A stretch of DNA of 64,000 bases from positions 66,202 to 130,201 of the forward strand of contig JAJYXQ010000043.1 of assembly GCA_021796385.1 (NCBI GenBank). Reading direction: 5' to 3'. Shown here in pieces: positions 22,384-60,955 of this stretch. The notes beneath the pieces are model-generated. The model saw nothing but the letters and a program-made list of their open reading frames with translations. It searched no databases and had not been told where the DNA came from. Numbering within the stretch: position 1 is the stretch's first letter; every line of letters begins with the position of its first letter. The DNA is from Thermoplasmata archaeon. Its GTDB lineage: Archaea > Thermoplasmatota > Thermoplasmata > Lutacidiplasmatales > UBA184. A program made the position numbers and the translations under genes.

Positions 22384-23343
22384 ATGGCTGTCAGTTCAGA
22401 AAGAGGAAAAGGGGGTGGAAAGTCCGGTTTACGGTTCCTGCGCCGAGGGAAGGTCAAAGAGATCTACGAGGTCTCCGACGACGTCTTGGAGTTCCGGTTC
22501 ACTGACGATGTCAGTGTCTTCGACAAGAAGATCCCCAATATCATCCCATACAAGGGTGAAAGTCTCGCCCGGACCAGCGCCCATTGGTTCAAGATGTGTG
22601 ACCGTCTGGGCATCCGACACCATTTCATCGAGCTTATCGATGCGAACCGGATGCGCGTGAAACGCGTTGAGGTCGAGCCCGAGATGAAGGGTCGGGAGAA
22701 GAAGAAGGTCCTCATTCCCCTCGAGTTCATCGCGCGCTACTTTGTTGCGGGTACTCTGTGGGACCGGTTGCGGAAAGGTAAGGTCAGCCCGCAGGAACTG
22801 GGCTTTTCCTCGGGACATATGGTCACCTACGGAGAGAAGCTACCCTCGCCCCTCTTCGAGATGACCACCAAGCTGGAACATGTCGATCGTCTTTTGAACG
22901 AGAAGCAGGCCATGGAGATCGGGGGAATGTCCCACGAGCAGGTGTCCAAACTTCAGGAGATGACCCTCAAGATCGACCAAGGGATATCAAAGAGCATCGA
23001 ACCCCGGGGCCTTATCCATGTGGACGGCAAAAAGGAGTTCGCTTTCGACGCCGAGGGCGAACTCATGATCGTGGACACGTTCGGGACGGGGGATGAGGAC
23101 CGGTTCTGGGACCGCAAGGAGATGGAGCGGGGCCGCTTCGAAGATTTCTCTAAGGAGTTCGTTCGCCAGTTCTATCGCAAGAGCGGATACTTCGACCAAC
23201 TCATTTCGGCCCGTGAGGGCGGAAAGGAGGAACCTCCGATCCCAGCCTTGCCCCCCACGATGGTGGAAGAGGTGAGTCGGATGTATACGACGATATATGA
23301 GCGACTCACCGGAGAGCCCTTCCGGACAATCACATCCCACTAG
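22384..23343 (+). CDS. purC: Phosphoribosylaminoimidazole-succinocarboxamide synthase
   Basis: [76 protein letters not shown]. Confidence 0.93.
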
Positions 23344-23347
23344 TTCC

Positions 23348-25684
23348 ATGCCCCCAAAAGCAAACAAAACAGAAGACGAGAAGGCTCAGGACCAAGAATC
23401 CTTAGAGGACCTGCCCGGGGTTGGCCCGAGCACAGCGGAAAAGTTACGGGAAGCCGGGTACCGGGATTTCATGGAAGTGGCCGTTGCGTCACCGGATGAT
23501 CTGGCCGCCGCGGCGGATGTCGGTGAGGGCATCGCCCAGAAGATCATTTTGGAGGCACGCAAGAAAGCCAACATCGGCGGTTTCGAGTCCGGCAGTCAGA
23601 TCTTGGAGCGACGCAAGCGCATCGGGCACATCTCAACCCAGTCCCAAGCAATCAACGAGCTCCTCGGGGGAGGCATCGAGACGCAAGCGATCACCGAGTT
23701 CTATGGACAGTTTGGCAGCGGAAAGTGCGTGGGACCCGAAACCCCAATCCTCTACTTCAACGACAACAACAGCCACCTTGAGCCGATCGAAGCAATGTAT
23801 GATCGTTACCGGGCCGCCCAAGGCGAGGTCCCGTTCGATTCGGGTTGGATGGTCCCGCTGACTACCGTCCAAGTAGCCGGAATCTCAAAGGCCGGTATCG
23901 CTCGGACTCGCGCATCGTACCTTTATCGAGAGAACTGTCGTGAGACAATGCATATTCGGACCCGCTCTGGTCGGAAGGTCGTATTGACCCCGCCACACAA
24001 GGTCGTTTCCTTCACGCCGGACGGAATCGCCTGGGTACCGGCATTAAAGCTCAAGGAGGGAGACAGCATGGGAGTCCCACGGACTCTCGAAGGGCTTGCA
24101 GCGAAACCCCATAGGTCATACCCGACCGAAGAGACGGCGTACCTCGGCGGGCTCGTTTTTGCCACTTCCAGCGCGGATGGACAAAAGGTCGTCGAAGTGC
24201 CAGATGCGGAACTTGCCACTTGGGTCTACTCCCACGCCGAGAGACTGGGAGCGGTCCCATCGATTTCCCACCTGAAATCCCGGGGAGGTTCAGAGTTCTA
24301 TCGCATCCTTATCGAAAAGTCCCCTTCTCTTCCCCGAGCGAGTGATCTGATCGGAGCCCCAGAGAATGTCCGCAAATCATTCTTGATCGGCTACTTCGAT
24401 GGCACGCGCACGCGACCCGGTAGGGATTCCGAGATTTCCTCTTCGGATGCGCAAAGCCATCTGGAGTTGATCTATCTGCTGTCGAGTTTTGGGATTCGGC
24501 CCCTCCGCGTCGGCGTACCCAAACGGAAGGGGGAGAAATGGACGATACGGATTTCGGATCCGGTTCTGGAAAAGCTCCGAAGCCTCCATGAGAGCACACC
24601 AGGTCCGAGCGAGTCTGCAGACGACTCGGTTGCAGAGACATACCCGGTCCAAGCAACGGCCTATGTCCAAGGACTCCTAGAGCGGCTGAAGACGGGGGCA
24701 GGTCCAGCGCACGTGGCCCCTTACCCGTGGGCCGAGGAGTTGCCTCCAAATCTATTGCGGAAGCTCGAAAAGGAGACTTCCCTTTCGGTATCCGACATCC
24801 GTCGCATCATCGTGGTGTTGATCAAGTTCGAGTCCCGGATCCTCGCCGGCACAGCTTCCGGTGACGAAGACGGGGAGGTCAGTACGCGCCGAAGGAACCC
24901 CGCCTCGGAGCTGCGGAAGGAGATACGGGAGGGCCTTCTTCAGTTGAAGAACTTGCTCGGTTTCTCGTGGGATTCTGTACACAAGATCGCTACGAAGCGT
25001 CAGAGCGGTTATGTGTACGACCTCGTGGTCCCTGACGGGCATGCGTTCGTTGGGGGTGAAGTTCCGACGATTCTCCACAACACGCAGATGGCGCTCCAGG
25101 CCTCAGTCACAGTGCAGCTACCTCCCGAGAAGGGAGGACTTTCCGGTGACGTGGTCTACATCGATACCGAGAACACCTTCCGCGCCGAACGGTTCGCGGA
25201 CATGGCGAAAGCTCTGGGTGTCGATCCCGACAAGGCGCTTTCCCACGTCCATGTTGCCCGGGCCTTCAATTCGAACCATCAGGAGCTCCTCGTTCCAAAG
25301 GCCTTCGAACTGGCCCACGATCGACCCGTCCGTCTTCTTGTGGTCGACTCCCTGACCGCCCATTTCAGGGCCGAATTCTTGGGACGGGGGGCGCTGGCGG
25401 ACCGCCAACAGCGGCTCAATCGCCACATGCACGAACTCTTGCGATTCGCGGACGTCTTCAACGCCGCCATCGTCTGTACCAACCAGGTGAGTGCCCGCCC
25501 GGACGTCCTGTTCGGTGACCCGACAGGTCCTATCGGCGGCAACATTGTCGGCCATACAGCCACCTACCGCGTCTACCTGCGGCGGTCGAAGCCCCCGCAC
25601 CGCATTGCCAGACTAGTCGATTCGCCGAATCTTCCGGAAGGGGAAGCGGTCTTCTCGGTCACAGGGGAAGGGATCAGAGACTAG
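23348..25684 (+). CDS. radA: DNA repair and recombination protein RadA, intein-containing precursor
   Basis: N-terminal HhH domain ([20 protein letters not shown]); exteins FYGQFGSGK and [75 protein letters not shown]. Confidence 0.97.
23726..25081 (+). mobile_element. RadA intein (452 aa) with LAGLIDADG-type endonuclease region
   Basis: Cys1 ([10 protein letters not shown]), block B TPPHKV, DOD-like [14 protein letters not shown] and FLIGYFDGT, block [17 protein letters not shown], terminal VPTILHN, +1 Thr of the Walker A GSGK/T. Confidence 0.95.
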
Positions 25685-55685: not shown

Positions 55686-56756
55686 TCAGGTTGCGGTGAT
55701 GAGCTCTCGGGTAAGCGCATCAGCCGGGAGGCCATAGACCTTCCCGTAAATGATCTTCCGAAGGTCTTCGCGCTCGATACGGGCCCGAAGCAAGAAATGG
55801 AATATCCCGGCCAATGACAAGGGAAAGATCCGCATCCTCTCTTGATTCATGGATGCGTGACGACGCTGCAGCGCGATCTCGAACGGGACAAGCGTGGCAT
55901 GTTCCCGGTACTGCGTAAGGGCGTCCGTCAAAGCGTAGCCGGTGCCCAGACCGGAAATGATCTCTTCGATGCTGCGGGCCTGGGCGAGGTCTTGGAACTG
56001 TTTGAGCGGAAGGATACCTCCTGGAATGAAGAACGAGGAAAGCCCCTCCGCTCGCACCCCGGACTCCTTACCCTTGAGCAGCGTAAGAATGTTCTTCGTG
56101 TCGATCTCCTCGGCGATGAACTGCCGTACGACCCACTCGTCGCCCTGGAAGAAGACCGCACTCCGAAGCAACTCGGCGTAGTACTGGGCCTCAAGGGCGC
56201 GGGTGATGGGAAAGATATTCTGGGTCTTGGTGAACTCTCCGAGGTGCTCCATGATAGTGACACCATATCCGTACCGCGTGAGGTTCTGCACGACCGCATC
56301 GACGCTGGGCTGTGCGAGCAGGTTCCTTAGGTCATCGATCGAGAGTACGCCAGCGGAGAATCCGGTGGGGGTCTTCCGGTCCGAGACAATGAACGTGTCG
56401 GACTCGGAAAGAATGCGCCCATACGCCTTTGCCGCTAGGATCGCCAGCACGTTCTCGATGTCCCACCATCGGAGGTAGGCCGCGATAGGGGCACGCCCCG
56501 CGAAGGGAGCCACTTGGTAGACAAGGCGGGTCACTGTGACGAAATGCCGGTTGACCGCCACCTCGAGTGCGTCGGAATCCTTGTATATCTCGAGGGCCCG
56601 CGTCAGATCGCCAGCATAGGGGGTGCCTTCCATCAGCTTGCCAAGATCGGCCACATCCTTGGCGACTGTCATCGAAAGCAACGTGTCCCGGTTTAAAAGC
56701 AAGCCGGAAAGGGCTTTCAACCGGCCCATGGATGATGCGTAGGTCGTCTCGCTCAT
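55686..56756 (-). CDS. V/A-type ATPase subunit C
   Basis: YASSMGRLKALSGLLLNRDTLLSM, RWWDIENVLAILAAKAYG, EIDTKNILTLLKGKESGV. Confidence 0.93.
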   Translation of the reverse strand: MSETTYASSMGRLKALSGLLLNRDTLLSMTVAKDVADLGKLMEGTPYAGDLTRALEIYKDSDALEVAVNRHFVTVTRLVYQVAPFAGRAPIAAYLRWWDIENVLAILAAKAYGRILSESDTFIVSDRKTPTGFSAGVLSIDDLRNLLAQPSVDAVVQNLTRYGYGVTIMEHLGEFTKTQNIFPITRALEAQYYAELLRSAVFFQGDEWVVRQFIAEEIDTKNILTLLKGKESGVRAEGLSSFFIPGGILPLKQFQDLAQARSIEEIISGLGTGYALTDALTQYREHATLVPFEIALQRRHASMNQERMRIFPLSLAGIFHFLLRARIEREDLRKIIYGKVYGLPADALTRELITAT

Positions 56757-57313
56757 TGCCGCGCGAGGATCTCGGTGATCTGGTCCTCCTTCCAGCGGAG
56801 GAGATCTTCGAACGACATTGAAATCCTTCGCTTCCCGTCGGAGGTCTCCGCGACCAATCCCCCCATGGCAGTGAGATTTCGTCCCTTGAGCATTCGAATG
56901 CTAAGGTACGGTGGCAACTGCTGAGCGTCCTCCTTTCGGACAACGAGTCGGGTATCCTCACCCAATACCGCGATGGCGGCATCAGCCATCCGTTGCAACA
57001 TCTGGATGTACTCGGGGGTGCTGGTGAAGGCCTTCAAGCGTTGATTGAGAAGAAGGCGGCCTTCTTGGATTCGGCGCTCCTTCGCCTCGTCCAGGACTTT
57101 CCGGGCCTGGAGACGGGCCTCGGCGCGCGTCCGATTCGCCTCCACCTCGACCTCATGGGCCGACTCTTTCTCCTCGAGCTCGTTTATGCGGGATATCTCT
57201 TGCTCGGCCTGCCGGGAGATCTCGGCCCGTTCCTGCTCGGAACGGGTCAGTATCGCTTGAAGTTCCCTCTCCGTCCGGTCCCGGACCTCACGGACCAGAT
57301 CTTCGAGCGACAC
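56753..57313 (-). CDS. V/A-type ATPase subunit E
   Basis: N-terminal coiled coil, C-terminal GGLVAETSDGKRRISMSFEDLLRWKEDQITEILA. Confidence 0.92.
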   Translation of the reverse strand: MSLEDLVREVRDRTERELQAILTRSEQERAEISRQAEQEISRINELEEKESAHEVEVEANRTRAEARLQARKVLDEAKERRIQEGRLLLNQRLKAFTSTPEYIQMLQRMADAAIAVLGEDTRLVVRKEDAQQLPPYLSIRMLKGRNLTAMGGLVAETSDGKRRISMSFEDLLRWKEDQITEILARQ

Positions 57314-57315
57314 GT

Positions 57316-57702
57316 TCAGAAGATCTTGAGCAGGAGGAGGAAACCCAGCACGAGACCGATGATCCAGAGCGTTTCCGGAATCACGAAGAAGACCAGGACG
57401 GAGCCGAATTTCTCCGGCCGCTCAGCGATGATGCCCATCCCCGCCGCGCCGATACCGGACTGGGCCATCCCCGTCCCGATAAGTCCGCCCGCGATCGCGA
57501 TCGCCGCGGCCAGCGTGTACAATGCAGTTCCGATGTCGGAACTCGACGAACTGGACGTGGAATTCGAGGCCGCCGGATGGGCCGTTCCGAACACTACGCT
57601 CGTCGCCGAGGCCGAACCCAGAAACGCCAACGTCACCGCAAAGATGGCGACGGCAATCCCCAGTGTAAGCCCCACACCCTTCAGCGCCTTGACCGAGTGC
57701 AT
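57316..57702 (-). CDS. V/A-type ATPase subunit K (proteolipid)
   Basis: ALYTLAAAIAIAGGLIGTGMAQSGIGAAGMGIIAERPEKFGSVLVFFVIPETLWIIGLVLGFLLL. Confidence 0.93.
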   Translation of the reverse strand: MHSVKALKGVGLTLGIAVAIFAVTLAFLGSASATSVVFGTAHPAASNSTSSSSSSDIGTALYTLAAAIAIAGGLIGTGMAQSGIGAAGMGIIAERPEKFGSVLVFFVIPETLWIIGLVLGFLLLLKIF

Positions 57703-57850: not shown

Positions 57851-60800
57851 CTATCTCGTACCCTGCGGCGGTCGCTCGTGGCCGCCACCTCCCGAGCGTT
57901 CCAGCTCCGTCATCTCCCGGGGGGTGAGCCGGTGCATCATGACGTACTCCGCCGCCTCCATCACATCGTTTGCCTCGACCTCGTTCCGTCCCTCGAAAGC
58001 ACAATTGGCCCGCGAGATCTCCTCGATCTGCAGGTCGAACCGAGTGCTCTGGTTGTCCAGGATCGTAAGGTTCGTGATTAGGGAGAGCATTTTGGGGGAC
58101 ACCGTGATCGACGGCAGACGTTCCCGGGCGGCCCGGATCTGTTCCACGTACTTCTCTGCGGCTGTTTGATAACCTTCACGGAAGGAGGTGGGATTGCTGC
58201 GGAACTGGGCATTCCGGTTGAGGATCTCCATCCGGGTCTCCGCAGAGTTCGGGGGGATCACCTCGACGTGGAGCATCGAACCGCTCAGAAGGTGGTAGGC
58301 TTCCTCATCCTGGTCCCGCAGCTGGCTGAACTGGAGCTGGGGGAGGCCCAGCGCCCGCCCCTCCGAATGTTTTTGCGGGGCAGGGATCGAGAGGACCGAG
58401 CACTCGTAGAAACGGTCGGAAAGGTATCGCGCCCGTTCTTTGCCATAATGGATCCTTCCTGTGAGATAGCGCTCAGGGTCGTTCCAGTCGAAGTGCAGGG
58501 TCGTCCCCCGACCCAACTGGGCATCGATCGGTGAGATCAACTCCGCAAGGGAGAGCAGCATCGAACTCTTCCCGCTTCCCTCCCGGCCCCACAGGAGAAC
58601 GCCCCCGATCGCCGGGTTTACGGCGTTCAGCACGAGGGCTCTCTTAGACTTCTCCATTCCCACGAAGGCGAGGAATGGGTAGGGTAGGCGCTTGAGCTTC
58701 TGGGAAAGACCCGAGTACGCCCCACGGTTCAGCAGCTCTCGCTTCAACCGTTCTTCCAATGCGCGGTTAGACACCTCCTGCTGGGCCCGGATCCGCTGCT
58801 CCATGGATTCGCGGGCCTTCTCAAGCAGCTGGTTGTTCGCCAGGGCGAGCCGGGACTCTTCGGCATGCACACGGAATTCCATTTCGGATTTCAGGCGTGC
58901 TTTTTCCGTCTCAAGCTGCTGGGTCGCTCGCCGCTGCAATTCGATCTCGGCATCCTTCCACCGGTTCCGCAGCTCTTCCTCAAGGTGAGCCCGTGCCTCG
59001 GACTGTTCCTTGAGCTGTGCCTCCGCCAGGCGCGCCCTTTCACCGGCCAACCGCTGATTGAATTCGATATCCAGACGCTGCTTCTCGGCAGTGATTCTGT
59101 CCGACGTCTCCTTGGCCGATAGCATCTCTATCTCATCGATCCGGTTGTCGAACTCCGCTTCGGACTTGGCGGCGGCTTCTGCAAGGCGCCGTTCGAGCTC
59201 GGCGGTAAGCCGCTGTTCCTCGGCCTGGAGTTTGGCCGCGGACTCCGCTTCTATCCGGGTGCGCTCGATGGCAATCTTGTCCGCAAGTTCCTTCTGAAGG
59301 TTCTCCTCGAGACGCTCGAGCCGTTGCGCGAAGCTTTCCTTGAGCTTCTTCTCGGCATTCTGACGTTTGGCCTGTATCTCATCGCTGAGCTCCTTCACCT
59401 CGGTCCGGACCCGCTCTTCGGACTGTTTTTGGAGTTGCGCCTTCTCGGACTCGAGTTGCCGGGCGAGCTCATCAACGTTCTCGGACACGAGCGCGGCTTT
59501 CAGTTGGGAAAGGGTAGATTCGTTTCGACTTTCGAGTTCCTTCTCCCGGGCGGCGAGTTCGGATGCAAGCCGGCCCTGCTCAAGGCGGACCTTCTCACCA
59601 AATTCAGCCTCGAGGCGAGTTCGCTCGGCGGCTTGGAATGCCGCATTCTCTTTCGCGGATAACTCCTCAATCTCCTTGACCCGTGCCCGAAGCTTCTCCT
59701 CGTTGGCACCCTGTAATTCGATCTGCTTCTGGAGGTTTTCTTCTGTAAGGCGGGTCATCTCGGCAGCCAGTTTCTGGGCGGCAGTCTCGTCCAGCTTTTT
59801 TTGCTCTTGCTCCAGACGAGTTGCCAGGTCCTTCTCTGCCGCCGCTTGAAGCGCCTTAAACCGATCGGTAAGTTCGGATTCGAATTTTGCACGAGCCTCC
59901 GCTTCCCGTTGCGTGGACTCCTCCTTGAGACGACTCTCCTCCTTGCGCAACTTCTCAGAGAACTCATTCTCTAACCGGCCCCGTTCCGTGGCCAGAGCCT
60001 CCGCGCTTTGCTTGGCGAAGGACTCCTCCAGCTCGTGGGTACGCGACCGAAGTTTCTCCTCGATCTCAGCCAGTGCCGCCATCTGCCTTTTCAGGTTCTC
60101 TTCCGTCAGGCGGTTCTCGTCCGCTGCCAGCTTTTGGTTGTACTCCGAAACCAGGCGCTGCGTCTCTTGTTCTATCCGAATCTGGAACGCCTTGTCCGCC
60201 TCGGCGGCCAGTTCACTCCGCCGTTTTGCGATGTCCTCTTCGGCCTTTGTTTGAACCTCGGAACGGCGCCGCTCGAACTCTTGGGCGAGCCGCGTTTCGG
60301 CTTCGGCCGACTTCTGACCGAGTTCAATGGCGAACCGGGTTTTCATGTCCTCCAGGGCCTGGCTGGAGGCCTTCTCCATAGCTGCCGCTAGTTCTTTCTC
60401 TCGGCTCCGGAACGACTCCTCAAGCTTGGATTGGGCCTGGGCGAGCCTCTGACCATACTCGTTCTCCAAAGTGCGTCGGAAATCGCTTTCCCGCACCTTG
60501 TATTCTTGCTCCAGCCGGGACCGGAGCTCCTCTTCGTACGTCCGAGAACGGTTCGAAAACGCGGCCTCGAGCGTCGCGCGTTCCCGCTTGAGGTCTGCGT
60601 CGAACTTGCGCTGTAGTTCCACTTCAAGGGTGTTCCGCTGCTCCGCGTAGCGGGCGGCCAGTTCCTGCTCTATCCTTGAAATGTTGCGCGTGAAATCGGT
60701 TGTGAGGCGCGTGGCAAGCTCTTTGCGCTCCGAGTCTGAGCGAGCCCGCAACGTCTGCTCGAGTTGCGCGAGCTCTTCCTGATAAGCCTGTTTCTGCTCC

Positions 60801-60955
60801 GTGGACCTATGCTCAAAGTCCGCCCGCAGCTCGTCGATCGAGGTCCGATGCCGGTGTTCAAGCTCCTTTTGCAGTTTCGCCAGATCGCCCGAGAGCTCCT
60901 TCTTCACGTAGGCGAGTTCGAGGTCCAGGTCCCGCTCGTGTATTTCATCGCCCAT
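57851..60955 (-). CDS. Giant coiled-coil protein with C-terminal Mg-chelatase/BchI-like AAA+ domain
   Basis: ~750-aa charged coiled coil followed by PFLAFVGMEKSKRALVLNAVNPAIGGVLLWGREGSGKSSMLLSLAELI...LHVEVIPPNSAETRMEILNRN...EISRANCAFEGRNEVEANDVMEAAEYVMMHRL. Confidence 0.85.
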   Translation of the reverse strand: MGDEIHERDLDLELAYVKKELSGDLAKLQKELEHRHRTSIDELRADFEHRSTEQKQAYQEELAQLEQTLRARSDSERKELATRLTTDFTRNISRIEQELAARYAEQRNTLEVELQRKFDADLKRERATLEAAFSNRSRTYEEELRSRLEQEYKVRESDFRRTLENEYGQRLAQAQSKLEESFRSREKELAAAMEKASSQALEDMKTRFAIELGQKSAEAETRLAQEFERRRSEVQTKAEEDIAKRRSELAAEADKAFQIRIEQETQRLVSEYNQKLAADENRLTEENLKRQMAALAEIEEKLRSRTHELEESFAKQSAEALATERGRLENEFSEKLRKEESRLKEESTQREAEARAKFESELTDRFKALQAAAEKDLATRLEQEQKKLDETAAQKLAAEMTRLTEENLQKQIELQGANEEKLRARVKEIEELSAKENAAFQAAERTRLEAEFGEKVRLEQGRLASELAAREKELESRNESTLSQLKAALVSENVDELARQLESEKAQLQKQSEERVRTEVKELSDEIQAKRQNAEKKLKESFAQRLERLEENLQKELADKIAIERTRIEAESAAKLQAEEQRLTAELERRLAEAAAKSEAEFDNRIDEIEMLSAKETSDRITAEKQRLDIEFNQRLAGERARLAEAQLKEQSEARAHLEEELRNRWKDAEIELQRRATQQLETEKARLKSEMEFRVHAEESRLALANNQLLEKARESMEQRIRAQQEVSNRALEERLKRELLNRGAYSGLSQKLKRLPYPFLAFVGMEKSKRALVLNAVNPAIGGVLLWGREGSGKSSMLLSLAELISPIDAQLGRGTTLHFDWNDPERYLTGRIHYGKERARYLSDRFYECSVLSIPAPQKHSEGRALGLPQLQFSQLRDQDEEAYHLLSGSMLHVEVIPPNSAETRMEILNRNAQFRSNPTSFREGYQTAAEKYVEQIRAARERLPSITVSPKMLSLITNLTILDNQSTRFDLQIEEISRANCAFEGRNEVEANDVMEAAEYVMMHRLTPREMTELERSGGGGHERPPQGTR

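Follow-up and report, generated by a model that had tools for sequence, protein, structure and literature searches.

The 64,000-nucleotide stretch of DNA analysed here (the window) encodes a 1034-residue protein that probably arose by duplication, in one lineage, of the rod subunit of a chelatase-type AAA+/VWA machine. This machine of Thermoplasmata would have four parts, and the duplicate has a longer rod. This reading builds on an intact open reading frame (ORF), the fold family of its C-terminal domain, the loss of catalytic motifs, the periodicity of the rod, the co-occurrence of the family with three partner proteins, the duplication itself and a site that is empty in related genomes.

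A rod of 15-residue repeats on a degenerate chelatase domain

The original prediction of a very long rod joined to a BchI-like AAA+ module was right: the ORF is intact and its C-terminus is of the chelatase I family. The features of the gene are the following:

57851..60955, minus strand: rod and pseudo-ChlI protein, 1034 aa, ATG start, a single uninterrupted ORF
58751..60895, minus strand: rod, aa 21-735, 47-48 tandem 15-residue repeats, from periodicity analysis
57893..58696, minus strand: degenerate ChlI/BchI-type AAA+ domain, about aa 754-1021, without the ChlI Walker B/sensor 1 segment, from profile and structure-database matches
58565..58588, minus strand: P-loop GREGSGKS, aa 790-797, canonical in the window copy
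57899..58048, minus strand: AAA_lid_2 domain, aa 970-1019, Pfam match above cut-off

The ATG start is credible because the first 50 residues, with the N-terminus DLDLELAYVKKELSGDLAK, align with those of relatives (ELDAEMAFIQKKIAEGIAR). An assembly error joining two separate genes, named earlier as a finding that would undo the fusion, is refuted by the presence of the same architecture in many independent genomes and by a search for near-identical DNA repeats inside the window gene that found none.

Is the rod a heptad-rich coiled coil, as had been proposed? The hydrophobic periodicity of aa 21-735 peaks at 3.75 residues, i.e. 15/4, with a power of 51, compared to a maximum in shuffled sequences of 11.5 (wider period range) or 8.3 (the other period range) and to a power of only 0.6 at 3.5. 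The phase at 3.75 stays constant within about 60 degrees along aa 21-740, that is, over 720 residues and ~47 repeats without a register break, and the label 'heptad-rich' is therefore wrong. Charges recur at 7.5, the repeat consensus is roughly LAEEExRLEEELxxR, and the self-similarity of the protein peaks at multiples of 15, most strongly at multiples of 60. The usual way of reading supercoil handedness from hydrophobic periodicity (PMC9858780) gives a right-handed supercoil for a period of 15/4, and we infer that the rod would be a right-handed coiled coil with a predicted length of about 107 nm at 1.5 Å per residue. The rods of relatives show peaks at 3.745-3.77 in three genera (g1, g3 and g8) and at 3.62-3.64 in family f9; the 3.75 peak is absent from the other coils, namely AtpE, AtpH, GrpE, the PRC partner described below and the coils of family f6. 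An origin of the rod by tandem duplication at the DNA level was considered and rejected, as the DNA repeats are only weak and divergent. Given these repeats and the protein self-similarity at multiples of 15 and 60, any duplications must be old. The SMC-like role suggested earlier is unsupported: SMC and Rad50-like proteins combine a heptad coiled coil with an ABC-type head, whereas here the period is 3.75 and the head is a chelatase AAA+ domain.

The last ~270 aa of the window protein match NCBIfam TIGR02442 (5e-39) and TIGR02030 (BchI, 5e-32), with all NCBIfam scores falling under the curated equivalog cut-offs, and the domain also matches ChlI/BchI structures in the PDB (6l8d, 7e-24; 1g8p, 1e-21). 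Together with the N-terminal PF-A-VGQ motif, the P-loop and the lid, these sequence comparisons confirm membership in the chelatase I (ChlI/BchI) AAA+ family rather than in an unrelated P-loop family. The original prediction had further claimed a diagnostic order of chelatase-type motifs; the family placement stood, but the order is incomplete. From the P-loop half to the 'LLDRF' region, ChlI has about 136 residues and the window protein about 75. In the profile alignment with the partner ChlI, the Walker B strand, there LYVDEIN, falls within the missing stretch, and neither sensor 1 (GSMNPEE in the partner) nor the arginine-finger region (RPQLLDR) has a kept counterpart. The window protein thus lacks all three catalytic elements that mark the ChlI family, namely Walker B, sensor 1 and the arginine finger; the zinc-ribbon ChlI beside the paralogue described below has them. 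Owing to these losses, the domain is very probably a pseudo-ATPase like that of ChlD, and they contradict the active ATPase head that had been envisaged. The lid residues are conserved. The Ser/Thr of the P-loop is replaced in every relative examined (GKF, GKY, GKR, AKF, AKK), and since the window copy nests within these relatives, its serine is most simply a secondary gain. To judge from the motif, the regained serine may restore ATP binding; hydrolysis by this copy is unlikely. An AlphaFold2 model of the domain from 8 sequences reached a pLDDT of only 41 and was set aside.

Partner proteins and their co-occurrence

In keeping with the earlier statement that no characterised protein has this architecture, a search of open-access papers turned up none. 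The protein has relatives, however, and belongs to a Thermoplasmata family with three recurrent partners. The same fusion occurs in 16/400 Thermoplasmata genomes, truncated in one of them (counting matches with E < 1e-4 in rod-family frames), and a phylum-wide search found no member beyond the lineages already seen. A zinc-ribbon ChlI is present in 16/16 of the rod-protein genomes and in 0/6 other genomes tested. A membrane protein with a PRC barrel and a coiled coil is found in the same 16 genomes and in one other among the 400. Full-length members of a VWA family occur in 14 genomes, all among the 16 and nowhere else in the 400, and the window genome adds a copy that is truncated where its contig ends, which brings the total to 15/16. 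Fisher tests of the co-occurrence gave p values of 5e-24 or lower with phylogeny ignored, the independent support being three lineages.

The window genome contains a 555-aa paralogue on contig C70. Genes of this type adjoin a zinc-ribbon ChlI with all catalytic motifs as well as a protein that combines a PRC-like barrel, a coiled coil, a zinc ribbon and a hydrophobic helix at its C-terminus; the cluster of family f9 additionally holds the VWA protein. The partner genes are adjacent in f9, partly adjacent in family f1 and mostly unlinked in genus g8, so that their co-occurrence is not mere linkage. Anatomy and co-occurrence are the strong parts of the evidence.

The rod protein matches the AAA (N-terminal) half of TIGR02442, while the VWA protein matches positions 405-638 of the 641 in this model and 346-608 of BchD, i.e. 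the C-terminal half. Because they match the two halves of TIGR02442, rod protein and VWA protein together amount to a split ChlD. ChlD/BchD carries a dead AAA domain and a C-terminal VWA domain on one chain; here the VWA domain resides on a separate protein, and the tree separates the rod proteins from ChlD. The VWA MIDAS is incomplete, with DxS present and a variable third loop. As in the MoxR/chelatase-VWA systems, an AAA+ protein of the clade co-occurs with a VWA protein.

The AlphaFold2 model of the PRC protein has a mean pLDDT of 68 (about 85 in the barrel), and its best Foldseek matches are the CdvA filament structures 9s9i/9s9g (E 1.6e-7, TM to target about 0.55-0.64); other PRC barrels rank below them. 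The resemblance depends on this model and is owed in part to the generic PRC barrel, and in the f9 homologue the Pfam PRC match is only weak (0.012). Like CdvA, the partner combines a PRC barrel and a coiled coil. CdvA is a division scaffold, and PRC-barrel proteins, which also form its N-terminal domain, are needed for Haloferax division (PMC11188069). The modelled match may therefore point to a membrane-scaffold role, as a lead rather than a proof, and the tether or cytoskeletal role suggested earlier for the rod is plausible to this extent, as rod, tether or scaffold next to a partner resembling a CdvA filament protein. PADLOC found no defence family, the sole exception being a weak coiled-coil match of the PRC protein to LmuB.

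Several further proteins were noticed as well. In g8, the VWA partner makes up the C-terminal portion of a longer protein of 908 aa (L105 7583-10309, minus strand; L106 7331-10057, minus strand), whose N-terminal half resembles, by eye, a degenerate RecA/KaiC-type domain. Directly upstream of ChlI, family f9 encodes a protein of ~815-834 aa that carries a hydrophobic segment at its N-terminus and gives weak Ig-like/carboxypeptidase-regulatory-like matches, a candidate client or surface component, at the following loci:

L071 11212-13656, minus strand
L072 8609-11098, minus strand
L073 291-2792, plus strand
L070 11159-13663, minus strand

Family f6 has a protein of 871-882 aa with zinc ribbon, transmembrane segment, coiled coil and intact ChlI (L075 2279-5961, L076 467-9175), adjoining further ChlI paralogues and secreted or membrane proteins; elsewhere it has a VWA and pseudo-ChlI fusion beside a pure coiled-coil protein (L113 5869-8426). 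The f6 proteins may make up a parallel version of the proposed machine.

An extra copy between dnaK and atpK

The window protein is 479 residues longer than the C70 paralogue, close to 32 repeats, and the extra length lies in the rod. Other members of the genus carry the C70-type gene only. In the tree the window copy falls inside the genus clade (support 99/96) on a long branch of 0.86; it is fast-evolving and was seen in one genome only. Its gene lies between dnaK and atpK-E-C on the same strand. In three congeners (G015, G003 and G009), dnaK is directly followed by atpK-E-C, with no room for a gene. The AT-rich element GCGAATTATTATATAGCTG precedes atpK both in the window and in G003, and since it stays beside atpK in both, the gene was inserted upstream of it. 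The flanks of the insertion show no similarity to those of the paralogue above shuffled sequences. The window gene is thus a lineage-specific extra copy inserted between dnaK and atpK. Two side observations concern the same genome: its A-type ATP synthase genes are split, with K-E-C at 55686-57702 (minus strand) of the window and I, an H-like small coiled-coil gene, D and B on contig C76 (L036 9787-14309), and a RadA recombinase of 795 aa (window 23297-25684, plus strand) has, by eye from the translation, an apparent intein inserted in its P-loop.

Could the protein serve its neighbours, as a proteostasis factor with DnaK or as an accessory of the A-type ATP synthase? Position and strand would fit, and 15-residue repeats are also found in the A-ATPase stalk subunit G (PMC6131620). 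However, the site is empty in the three congeners, so that the neighbourhood is incidental; the element GCGAATTATTATATAGCTG never left atpK, and the paralogues lie elsewhere, adjoining ChlI instead. The proteostasis role once drawn from the adjacent dnaK is contradicted by this, and we regard either function as extremely improbable. A copy known from one genome only, on a long branch and unlinked to its partners, could also be losing its function. That it is a decaying duplicate without any function is nonetheless improbable, as the frame of 1034 codons is intact, the 15-residue register is kept over 700 aa, the lid residues are conserved and the rod has been lengthened rather than eroded.

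Proposed machine and its relatives

We infer the assembly steps, the membrane work and the client of the machine by analogy with Mg chelatase, where ChlD's inactive AAA domain has an allosteric regulatory role (PMC3789969), and, as a second analogy, with MoxR-VWA chaperones (PMC7159879, PMC9976466). The zinc-ribbon ChlI would form the active ring and hydrolyse ATP. The C-terminal domain of the rod protein would play the part of the dead AAA half of ChlD, here split in two: it would stack on, cap or mix into this ring and couple hydrolysis to the separate protein that supplies the VWA half, which in turn would grip the client. The rod would extend out of the ring towards a membrane or filament partner, either setting a distance or serving as a scaffold, and membrane attachment would come from the tail-anchored, CdvA-like PRC-barrel/coiled-coil protein. 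The window copy would serve as an alternative subunit whose rod is about three times as long and whose P-loop has been restored for nucleotide binding and not for hydrolysis. More tentatively, we speculate that the split-ChlD ring works on a CdvA-like PRC scaffold at the membrane and that the rod is a molecular ruler tuned in 15-residue steps, the window duplicate having gained 479 aa or about 32 repeats.

A use in cell division is the rival closest to this proposal. Rod and CdvA-like PRC protein might build a membrane-bound filament or ring, a cytoskeletal or division scaffold that the ChlI/VWA pair remodels or disassembles; the CdvA filaments as best structural matches, the part of PRC-barrel proteins in Haloferax division and CdvA (PMC11188069) and the very long uninterrupted rod all speak for it. 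No linkage to ftsZ, sepF or cdv was noticed in the neighbourhoods read, and most of the family lacks the system, which therefore is not a general division machine; we consider this explanation rather unlikely. An active motor, with the rod as an ATP-driven tether or SMC-like arm and ATP hydrolysis in its head, draws on the canonical GREGSGKS of the window copy and is very improbable in view of the deleted Walker B segment, the lost sensor-1 Asn and arginine finger, the absence of the P-loop Ser/Thr from all relatives examined and a rod without heptads. Least credible is a subunit of a true Mg/Co tetrapyrrole chelatase. The sequence family would suggest it, but CobN/ChlH (PF02514) was found in 0/14 rod-protein genomes tested by a search that was positive in controls and in G342, which argues against a tetrapyrrole chelatase.

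How does the proposed split-ChlD machine compare to known systems? With Mg chelatase (ChlI/ChlD, BchI/BchD) and the putative cobaltochelatase TIGR02442 it shares an active ChlI, a dead AAA domain and a ChlD-type VWA domain. Unlike in Mg chelatase, the halves of ChlD are separate proteins, the AAA half bears a rod, ChlI bears zinc ribbons, there is an additional PRC membrane protein and the H subunit was not found in the 14 rod-protein genomes tested. The MoxR-VWA pairs (RavA-ViaA, NorQ-NorD, CoxD-CoxE) and the MoxR-vWA ternary systems (PMC7159879) likewise join an AAA+ protein of the clade to a VWA co-chaperone and a third component, and some act at membranes (PMC9489729); here, however, the AAA+ protein belongs to the chelatase subclade, and what comes as the third component is a rod with a pseudo-AAA domain. 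The membrane partner resembles CdvA in its PRC barrel followed by a coiled coil, but differs in carrying a zinc ribbon and in its hydrophobic helix at the C-terminus, and no linked CdvB/CdvC was noticed in the neighbourhoods read. Long rods of non-heptad periodicity are known from pentadecad and hendecad proteins (A-ATPase subunit G, PMC6131620; Scy/FilP, PMC9858780); Scy/FilP consist mainly of hendecads, whereas about 47 pentadecads in one register sit on an AAA+ domain here. Every module is known, and the combination, present in some acid-mine and other Thermoplasmata, is apparently undescribed: we found no description of the four parts together in open-access papers, and one may exist elsewhere.

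The roles known for chelatase-type AAA+/VWA pairs are mostly metal insertion and the assembly of complexes. In the proposed machine, the ChlD architecture would have been dismantled and put together anew, with the addition of a very long rod, probably right-handed, and of a membrane anchor that resembles CdvA. This would be a non-chelatase use of the ChlI ATPase family, and a testable one, in archaea in which the tetrapyrrole-binding subunit was not found. The rod itself is a natural long pentadecad structure of use to structural work on coiled coils, and the machine as a whole may form a bridge between AAA+/VWA chaperones and archaeal membrane scaffolds.
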